From positions 186,001-250,000 of the forward strand of contig JAIXMF010000020.1 of the NCBI GenBank assembly GCA_025201365.1: a stretch of 64,000 bases of DNA, in the 5' to 3' direction. This document shows positions 44,499 to 46,211 of the stretch, one piece after another (positions within the stretch are counted from its first letter, which is position 1; each line of letters begins with the position of its first letter). The notes beneath the pieces were generated by a model. The model did not search any database and had not been told where the DNA came from. It was given only the letters and a program-made list of their open reading frames with translations. Source of the stretch: Syncephalis plumigaleata (taxonomy: Eukaryota > Zoopagomycota > Zoopagomycetes > Zoopagales > Piptocephalidaceae). Both the position numbers and the translations under genes were made by a program.

Positions 44499-45759
44499 AT
44501 GAAGTTATCTGCCATTATCGTTATTGCTGTCGCCGTTGTCGCTCTCACCAGTCTGGTCGCCGTTGAAGCCAAGCCCGCATTGGCCCGTCGTGGTATGTCA
44601 CAGGAACAACAAGAACAATAATGATAGTAATGGATACTAGCTGACTCATTAATGATTGCTCAATAGCTGGCAAGTCTACCATTTGACCACAATGTCCCAT
44701 GTATTAACCATGCTGTAACACTATTTATACATTTATTCCGTCAATAGTTGGTATGTTGTCAATGTAATAATGATCCCATTCAATGTGCTGACTGTAATAT
44801 AATCATGCTCAATCCTCCTATGTGTATGTGCCTATTCCGATAGTCGAACGTAGGTTTGCCGATAAATAAATAAACCACTTGACATGCTACTAATCATACT
44901 GCCCTATCGACACGGTACATGGATCAATAGGCCGTAAGTAGTTGTCATGCCATGCTGATCATACCATTCAATGAGCTAACCATCCAAATGGAATTATTCC
45001 ACAAATAGGTGGTACGTATGACTACTATGGTCATGTCGATTGATGTACTAATCGTAGTCTATTGTTTCATTGTCCATTGATGATTATCGATAGCTCGTAA
45101 GTTCATGTGTACCAAGTGGTTGTTTTGACATGCTAATCGCATTGCTATGTTTATTCTATCTATCAATTGTTAGCAAATCCTCGTAAGCTGGTTTATTGAC
45201 CATAACAAGTACTATGCTAACTGTAATGTAAATCAAAATAATATGTGGCTACCATTTCAAGAGGATGTAAGTTGCCATTCTGACAGCAATGAATGAGGTA
45301 CTGACTACGATATGGCACACGATCTATGCATGTTTTGTATGATAGGACGTAAGTTGCCATTCTGACAGCAATGAATGAGGTACTGACTACGATATGGCAC
45401 ACGATTTACGTATGTTCCTGTATGATAGGAGGTAAGTTATCATCCTGATTGCAATGAATGAGGTACTGACTACGATATGGCACACGATTTGCGTATGCTT
45501 TTGTATGCTAGACTGTAAGTTACCATCCTGATTGCAATGAATGAGGTACTGACTACGATATGGCACACGATTTGCGTATGTTTTTGTATGATAGGGCGTA
45601 AGTAATCATTCTGATTACAATGAATGGGGTACTAACTACGATATGGCAAATGATCCATCTACGTTATTGTATGATAGGAGGTAAGTAATTATTCCAGTCG
45701 TCATCTACGATATGCTGATCACAATACAATACATGTTAATTGAATGATAGGAAGAATAA
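44499..45759 (+). CDS. Micro-exon gene encoding a small secreted peptide
   Basis: Exon 1 (44499-44592) encodes MKLSAIIVIAVAVVALTSLV then AVEAKPALARR, a clear signal peptide, and ends in phase 1. Micro-exons follow between AG and GT (or GC): CTG 44667, TTG 44747, TCGAAC 44844, GCC 44931, GTG 45009, CTC 45094, CAAATCCTC 45174, AGGAT 45262, GAC 45346, GAG 45429, ACT 45512, GGC 45595, GAG 45678 and GAAGAATAAGCA 45751. The last exon starts at 45825. Introns are 62-94 nt, with GTAAGT-like donors and usually a CTAAC/CTGAC-like branch followed by no AG before the acceptor. Joined, the downstream part reads AVVERRAPNPQDDETGEEE, then TAA at 45757 (about 50 residues in total). If the 5-nt exon is skipped, an alternative frame runs to TAG at 45850, ending KQDKDIIK. 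The exon-2 donor would be GC (GCAAGT). No known family recognised. Confidence 0.75.
45262..45680 (+). repeat. Tandem array of intron + single-triplet exon units, 82-83 bp period
   Basis: Units begin at 45267, 45349, 45432, 45515 and 45598. Each is an intron from GTAAGT to GATAG/GCTAG followed by a 3-nt exon. The first 57 bases of units 1 and 2 are identical, and all units share GAGGTACTGACTACGATATG (TACTAAC in the last) as the branch region. The triplets are GAC, GAG, ACT, GGC and GAG. The array is a recent amplification of a complete intron-exon module. Confidence 0.9.
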
Positions 45760-46078
45760 GCAGTAAGTAACAATCCACAATAATCCACCATAATCATAAC
45801 CATACTAATCCATTACGATTACAGAACAAGACAAGGACATCATCAAGTAGATATTATAGGTATTCAAGTCAAGAATGGATTAGTGCAAGACCCTTTAGTG
45901 TCCATGTCATTCAAGTTATTATTCCTTGGACCAAGAAATATATCTACAAGATCATTCAATCATTTATTGAATAAATATGTCGTATTCTGACCATTATACT
46001 AGTGATACAAATGTAGTTGATTATTCATGTAGATGAAACTACCTGCTACTAACAACTGCCATTCTACACGATAGTTGG

Positions 46079-46211
46079 AGCAGTGGCTGGTAAAAAGGAT
46101 GCACGAGAGATCATGATACAGGGTGACCATGTAAACAAAGTCAAACGGATACTGGCAAGCTATAGCATTCCTGAGCATTACGTCGAGGTGGATAACAAGA
46201 GCAAGAAATAA
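46079..46211 (+). pseudogene. Orphan exon resembling the C-terminal SUI1 domain of eIF2D/TMA64
   Basis: After a splice-like acceptor (ACGATAG) a short frame reads VGAVAGKKDAREIMIQGDHV, then NKVKRILASYSIPEHYVEV and DNKSKK before TAA. The series I-QG-(N/D)xV-x-L-x-(Y)x-(I/L)P-x-(H/Y)-(I/V) followed by a lysine-rich end resembles the C terminus of eIF2D/ligatin-type SUI1 domains, which bind tRNA/40S subunits. I find no upstream exons for the rest of such a protein between 45.9 and 46.1 kb, so it looks like a gene fragment or a last exon separated from its gene. It lies just after the micro-exon gene. Confidence 0.4.

Follow-up and report, generated by a model that had tools for sequence, protein, structure and literature searches.

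The gene considered here lies in a 64-kb stretch of DNA, the window, corresponding to C113:186001-250000 of the 32.64-Mb genome of Syncephalis plumigaleata, a zoopagomycete (Zoopagomycota) that parasitises other fungi. On the forward strand, a 94-nt exon 1 (44499-44592) is followed by 14 tiny exons leading to an in-frame TAA, the whole spanning 44499-45762 (Table 1), and we consider it very probable from these features and from those of its relatives that this part of the window holds an intact spliceosomal gene coding for a secreted-type peptide of 50 residues, with a coding sequence cut by 14 short introns into mostly one-codon exons.

The window gene and its exons

A first-pass annotation of the same DNA had proposed a signal-peptide-type exon followed by about 14 micro-exons, most of them one triplet long, with an open frame of about 50 residues. 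Both proposals were borne out by our splice model, in which 10 of the 14 tiny exons are exactly 3 nt long and the joined product is 50 residues long up to the TAA at 45757-45759, reading AVVERRAPNPQDDETGEEE and then stop. Exon 1 codes for MKLSAIIVIAVAVVALTSLVAVEAKPALARR plus one base. The introns are 62-93 nt long, the second one having a GC donor (GCAAGT), and at each unit a codon lies between acceptor and donor, i.e. there is no zero-nucleotide exon in which AG directly precedes GT. A hydrophobic N-terminus typical of a signal peptide was seen by eye across 20 aligned loci, and the dibasic sites RR and ERR occur in the window peptide after this signal-peptide-like start as well as in contiguous paralogs.

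The splice model is frame-blind: it relies on donor, acceptor, branch motif and intron length and makes no use of the reading frame. The scores of the final model were loosened for GTACGT donors and AAG acceptors after an earlier model had been viewed, again with the reading frame unused; that earlier model, whose acceptor profile came from the repeats, had picked GAT and GTGGTAC exons and was replaced. The first-pass annotation also had an exon GAT, which needs correction, as the acceptor before 45262 is AAG/AGGAT, giving a 5-nt exon, and not GAG/GAT. Joining a 3-nt GAT leads into a TGA, whereas the join with AGGAT is open to the TAA at 45757-45759. In a chain search admitting only exons that are a multiple of three, the stretch holding the gene scored 68.0 with 14 exons, compared with 5.6 and 2 exons for the best other tile (148 overlapping window tiles, both strands) and 8.1 and 2 exons for the best dinucleotide shuffle of the stretch (n=300). 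This gap, though very large, is partly there by design because the scoring rules were tuned on this gene family.

Table 1. Features of the window gene in their order along the window
Feature	Position	Strand	Basis and remarks
TATA box candidate TATAAA	44294..44299	+	Motif scan; contiguous paralogs L029 and L041 have an upstream TATAAA as well; putative promoter
Exon 1: ATG, hydrophobic signal-peptide-like stretch, end CGT CGT G, phase 1	44499..44592	+	Aligned in 20 loci
Micro-exon CTG, phase 1, GC donor next	44667..44669	+	Alignment and splice model
Micro-exon TTG, phase 1	44748..44750	+	Alignment and splice model
Micro-exon TCGAAC, phase 1	44844..44849	+	Alignment and splice model
Micro-exon GCC, phase 1	44931..44933	+	Alignment and splice model
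Micro-exon GTG, phase 1	45009..45011	+	With CTG to CTC, restores sequence uninterrupted in L029
Micro-exon CTC, phase 1	45094..45096	+	Alignment and splice model
Micro-exon CAAATCCTC, 9 nt, phase 1	45174..45182	+	Splice model
5-nt exon AGGAT, phase 1 to phase 0	45262..45266	+	Splice model; 17 of the 553 internal exons (19 models) have 5 nt
Single-codon exon GAC (Asp)	45346..45348	+	Splice model
Single-codon exon GAG (Glu)	45429..45431	+	Splice model
Single-codon exon ACT (Thr)	45512..45514	+	Splice model
Single-codon exon GGC (Gly)	45595..45597	+	Splice model
Single-codon exon GAG (Glu)	45678..45680	+	Splice model
Tandem array, period 83 (80-nt intron plus one codon), 5.1 copies, 87% matches	45262..45686	+	Tandem Repeats Finder
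Stop exon GAA GAA TAA GCA (GAAGAATAAGCA), TAA 45757-45759	45751..45762	+	TAAGCN-ending exon in 17/19 models
3' untranslated region exon AACAAGACAAGGACATCATCAA, 22 nt	45825..45846	+	Similar sequence directly after TAAGCA in L029; no firm splice site at 3' limit
Poly(A) signal candidate AATAAA	45970..45975	+	Motif scan; putative function

Paralogs, a second family and deposited proteins

Independent evidence that the triplets belong together comes from L029 (C130:10791-11051), a paralog that has no introns in its coding part and is 100% identical to the deposited protein P0001. Its DNA CGCCGTGCTGTTGTCGAACGTCGTGCTCCT agrees with the joined CGTCGTG+CTG+TTG+TCGAAC+GCC+GTG+CTC+CA of the window gene at 27 of 30 nt, the three differences all being synonymous, and the match spans six whole micro-exons and seven junctions. 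The likeness extends to the end of the gene, where L029 has TAAGCA directly before AACCAAGACAAG, which is of the AAC(C)AAGACAAG type, an arrangement shared by the window gene once its 3' exons are joined. Among 17 array-free candidate paralogs that were fetched, six carry RRA[VI]VERR uninterrupted, and four of those RRA[VI]VERRAP.

The family is large. A genome search with DNA of the window gene, in which scoring was confined to the best candidates, gave 230 matches, and of the 137 places matching a family protein, 64 run on into intron 1 over the same 44 codons and seven more over 45, 42 or 38. By this rough mark of read-through, there would be roughly 70 interrupted genes in S. plumigaleata. 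Twenty loci were fetched and 19 gave models, in which 485 of the 553 internal exons before the stop exon are 3 nt long and 525 are a multiple of three. In the longest gene, L019, 81 exons (78 of 3 nt) separate exon 1 from the stop exon, and the product has 117 residues, while small cysteine-containing proteins are coded by L026, L027, L056 and L057. No Pfam family was found above cut-off for the six proteins searched, and protein searches with two products of the window gene's family (family A) returned only S. plumigaleata entries.

In the 17 models that have a TAAGCN exon there is no stop in the 598 joined codons before it, compared with 11 and 52 stops in 581 codons in the other two frames, and the TAA of that exon is in frame in 13 of the 17. 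An initial count of 717 stop-free codons was dropped, as it took only codons before the first stop, so that its zero was built in. The search of the same genome for further AG-NNN-GTAAGT arrays that the first-pass annotation had suggested proved productive: AGNNNGTAAGT with another one 65-85 nt further on occurs as 948 + 779 = 1727 linked pairs genome-wide, and the pattern read backwards only 14 + 2 = 16 times. The first exon of these 1727 pairs is never TAA or TAG and never TGA, where about 13 stops would be expected from the position-wise base frequencies in the 20 loci, although the exons come from paralogs and are hence non-independent. Letter-reversed triplets include 101 RAT and 16 AGT, a control that overstates the expected stops, since the last letter of a triplet is mostly C or T, the figure of about 13 in 1727 being fairer. 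The 401 triplets in the 20 loci likewise contain no stop against 3.1 expected, together with 6 TAY and 5 TGB, which is weak evidence by itself.

A second family, family B, is unrelated in sequence and behaves in the same way. At L032 (C1:1411500-1418500) single codons join to ANQHLDLFGTIAFEKKQKD, and the contiguous gene L036 (C318:1455923-1456237) codes for ANQHLDLFGAAAFEKRQKD, which agrees with the joined L032 at 47 of 57 nt and 16 of 19 residues. Family B (L032, L058 and L059, the last fetched only in part) has no signal peptide, and one of its exons, a GAT before an intron starting GTAAGTTG, is present at an estimated, uncounted 30 or so places among the matches listed. Another locus, L034 (C1:2472000-2476500, minus strand), has a signal-peptide-like exon that itself codes for repeated peptides of the DHVPPAAFRSLERR kind between RR/ERR sites; micro-exons come next, and the whole looks like a multi-peptide precursor.

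Deposited protein models provide a further comparison, from which P0009-P0012 were left out. In P0006 (BDF22DRAFT_685685) and P0008 (BDF22DRAFT_685769), about 40-50 residues each have no contiguous match in the genome, save the last 24 residues of P0006, and frame-blind chains on C362 reproduce them over 39 of 43 and 40 of 44 consecutive micro-exons, respectively, in order. One deposited chain omits GGA, ACACCT, CCT and CC, and the second omits CCT, TGT, CGG and GAG; of these eight exons, five have a donor other than GTAAGT (GTGAGT, GTAAGC, GTAGGT, GTAAAT, GTAGAT), and some weak donors are kept. P0006 and P0008 may represent either the opinion of an independent gene finder or RNA support. P0001 and P0003 were dropped as proof of micro-exon splicing, the former being coded contiguously and the latter in two contiguous genome pieces, and P0004 corresponds to two contiguous pieces that overlap. 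P0002 fuses the contiguous family B gene at C318:1455923-1456237 with exon 1 of L019 read into intron 1; a search with the N-terminal part of P0002 found only that protein itself. In P0002, P0006 and P0008, neighbours are fused, introns are read into or stops are passed, and the annotation of the family in the deposited models is unreliable.

The omitted exons bear on the possibility that micro-exon skipping is regulated, such that a single locus makes, by design, a combinatorial range of peptides. The omissions, five of them at exons with non-GTAAGT donors, and the fact that nearly all exons are multiples of three would suit such a scheme. The omissions may, however, be gene-model errors, the loss of one of the omitted exons (2 nt) would shift the frame, the same models retain further exons whose donors are weak, and any skipping could be noise. 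We therefore regard regulated skipping as unlikely.

A different objection is that the arrays are simply intronic tandem repeats, with a single ordinary long intron running from exon 1 to a distant acceptor and the triplets meaningless. Tandem Repeats Finder does recognize the arrays as tandem repeats. However, the joined triplets restore sequence that is contiguous in paralogs of two families, the 598 joined codons contain no stop, the deposited proteins follow the chains, and conservation is far higher at the splice sites than elsewhere in the introns (see below), which together make a single long intron very improbable. The architecture of the window gene, by contrast, is real on strong evidence as read from the DNA, and the proposal of a secreted-type peptide made from micro-exons is supported by L029, by the 17 of 17 models that are open to the stop exon, by the second family and by the deposited proteins that follow the chains.

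Several observations nonetheless weigh against reading the stretch as an intact gene of this kind. The scoring rules were adjusted across successive rounds of the splice model, and absence of stops in 3-nt exons is weak evidence when taken alone, since 18 of 141 shifted offsets within the same repeats have no stop either. The TAA exon is out of frame in four of the 17 models (L015, L016, L018 and L028), implying a phase error somewhere in each, and L023 and L027 lack a TAAGCN exon and stop at another kind of exon, while L024 is cut by the contig end. In family B, the open frame at L032 was obtained by dropping two exons of the frame-blind model, each of 2 nt, and the splice model of the second locus, L058, has no open frame. 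Finally, P0006 runs beyond the expected stop, and neither it nor P0008 is proof of transcription.

The array introns and the origin of the arrays

The introns themselves are uniform in length. Their commonest length is 80 nt (130 of 300 linked units), and in 201 of the 300 units a CTRAY motif places its A 43 nt before the intron end. A hidden Markov model profile of the array introns matches those of the window gene starting at 45267, 45349, 45432, 45515, 45598 and 45681 (together 45267 to 45746) with E values of 2.2e-8 or better. The other introns of the gene fare less well, with E 0.003 at 44934, E 0.07-1.1 for five and no match for three; the next match in the 64-kb window has an E value of only 1.6, and none else is below 1. 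The same profile matches 65 places in L032 and 11 in L034 (E up to 1), and by this measure of sequence the approximately 80-nt array introns are one family across family A, family B and L034.

Two possible origins of the arrays deserve discussion. According to the first, the introns are a mobile, introner-like family that inserted itself at almost every codon of genes until then uninterrupted, and the uninterrupted paralogs represent the older form. That one profile matches the array introns of two unrelated families and of L034 speaks for such a gain, as does the upstream sequence that uninterrupted and interrupted members have in common, because a simple retrocopy would not carry it. Against it, the profile gives weak matches or none for the 5' introns of the window gene, no other gene in the window has an array-profile intron, the uninterrupted members could stem from mRNA-templated intron loss, and both kinds are mixed on a weak tree. 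We would put intron gain at slightly less than an even chance.

The second possibility is that the intron-plus-codon unit was copied by tandem duplication and that the codon changed afterwards. The near-identical 83-bp units in the window point in this direction, as do the total length differences between L009 and L010 (83 bp) and between L013 and L014 (82 bp), each equal to one unit, and the codon blocks that recur in L019. Recent local duplication can explain only part of the pattern, however, because adjacent introns in a gene (mean similarity 0.754, compared with 0.716 for non-adjacent ones) are little more alike than introns of different genes (0.694). Moreover, the introns within AVVERRAP cannot have added codons, since they split sequence that is contiguous elsewhere. 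For tandem duplication the case seems to us evenly balanced.

Whatever their origin, exons and introns have diverged to different degrees. In ten paralog pairs, drawn from 11 loci and hence non-independent, micro-exons differ at 219 of 866 positions and exon 1 at 41 of 758, and introns differ at 2342 of 17563 positions away from the splice sites and at 57 of 2140 within them. Micro-exon divergence exceeds intron divergence in all ten pairs, slightly so in the three closest. The excess fits diversifying selection on the peptide, and mispaired units or homogenisation of introns could contribute to it.

We tentatively suggest, while holding it a good deal short of probable, that these are genes of a distinct kind, codon-cassette arrays, which evolve by whole units made up of an intron from one shared family plus a single codon. 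Through recombination inside near-identical introns, single codons would be inserted, deleted or swapped in frame, exons would outpace introns, and the spliceosome of the mycoparasite would act as a frame-proof generator of new secreted peptides, to which skipping of single codons may add diversity within a locus.

Splicing, known systems and neighbouring sequences

From the gene architecture we infer the actual splicing, the order of intron removal, the secretion and processing of the peptide and a role in contact with host fungi. Splicing most likely proceeds by intron definition, each intron of about 80 nt having its own GTAAGT, a CTRAY branch site about 43 nt from the 3' end and a YAG, because exon definition would hardly be possible with 3-nt exons, whereas the intron-borne signals are strong and the intron length is uniform. 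The exon would need to supply nothing, the intron signals being sufficient. Two spliceosomes on neighbouring introns would get in each other's way across only 3 nt, so the introns are probably taken out in succession, with one codon staying behind each time, and AG-NNN-GTAAGT would resemble a recursive-splicing site that retains a codon. Because nearly every exon is a multiple of three, the skipping or gain of a unit keeps the frame, and such frame-neutral units would let peptides gain, lose and change residues without a frameshift. In the peptide, Arg-Arg and AVV-Glu-Arg-Arg followed by an acidic tail look like Kex2-type processing sites.

Several known systems share part of this design. In recursive splicing, introns are removed stepwise at ratchet sites, where an acceptor lies beside a strong donor and no exon residue is left; in Syncephalis, by contrast, three nucleotides would be retained per step, if removal is indeed sequential. 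Fungal repeat peptides processed by Kex2 have a signal peptide followed by Arg-Arg sites. The Syncephalis family is similar in its signal-peptide-like start and Arg-Arg sites, with putative processing, and in the repeated peptides of L034, but the window peptide has no repeated core. The bicycle genes of aphids, which are insects, have many small exons, much longer than 3 nt. They are described as rapidly evolving putative effectors (PMC9168663).

The nearest known analogue is provided by the micro-exon genes (MEGs) of schistosomes, which, according to PMC10526429, code for secreted proteins that have a conserved signal peptide at the N-terminus, consist of short exons with lengths mostly divisible by three, and are hard to annotate automatically. 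The exons are mostly 15 bp long (range 6-81 bp in the text and 3-81 bp in the abstract of that paper) and the introns range from 100 to almost 5000 bp. The likeness to MEGs noted in the first-pass annotation is one of design rather than of demonstrated descent, internal exons in Syncephalis also being mostly multiples of three. The Syncephalis design is far more extreme than the examples found: 485 of the 553 exons are exactly 3 nt long, the window introns measure 62-93 nt, the array introns of about 80 nt belong to one sequence family, and the organism is from another kingdom. Fungal introner-like elements are similar short spliceosomal introns present across many genes of a fungus (PMC4457414, PMC9860276), and the Syncephalis introns are comparable in that one profile fits the arrays of family A, family B and L034, but they differ in being packed at a density of one per codon into few gene families; the main texts of those two papers mention neither Syncephalis nor Zoopagomycota. 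In another fungus, Trichoderma virens, the transcription factor Xlr2 has one regulated microexon, whereas the Syncephalis arrays consist of many, and its authors state that functional microexons had previously been undescribed in filamentous fungi (PMC11121469). No micro-exon arrays in Syncephalis or any other fungus were found in the literature searched, a body that excluded preprints and most subscription papers.

If splicing of these genes is confirmed, the spliceosome would be able to join accurately long runs of 3-nt exons, dozens in succession (the L019 model has 78 ahead of its stop exon). This would challenge views on minimum exon size and on how neighbouring spliceosomes share space, and would offer a natural test bed for ordered, intron-defined splicing, as well as a design for diversifying proteins that leaves almost no room for frame errors. 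Normal annotation does not see such genes, the deposited S. plumigaleata models missing or garbling most of those compared, and similar genes may lie unseen in other genomes.

Just downstream of the window gene is an open stretch, GAVAGKKDAREIMIQGDHVNKVKRILASYSIPEHYVEVDNKSKK followed by a stop, at 46077-46211 on the forward strand, weakly similar to the C-terminal part of SUI1 (Pfam E 8.7e-5, below cut-off), and the deposited P0009 fuses a signal peptide of the family to a relative of this stretch. L033 (C1:2254500-2258500) is a short gene with a signal-peptide-like exon and five small exons, the introns of which have no match to the array profile. Finally, the genome has 51 matches to the M36 metallopeptidase family, many of them in full-length open frames.
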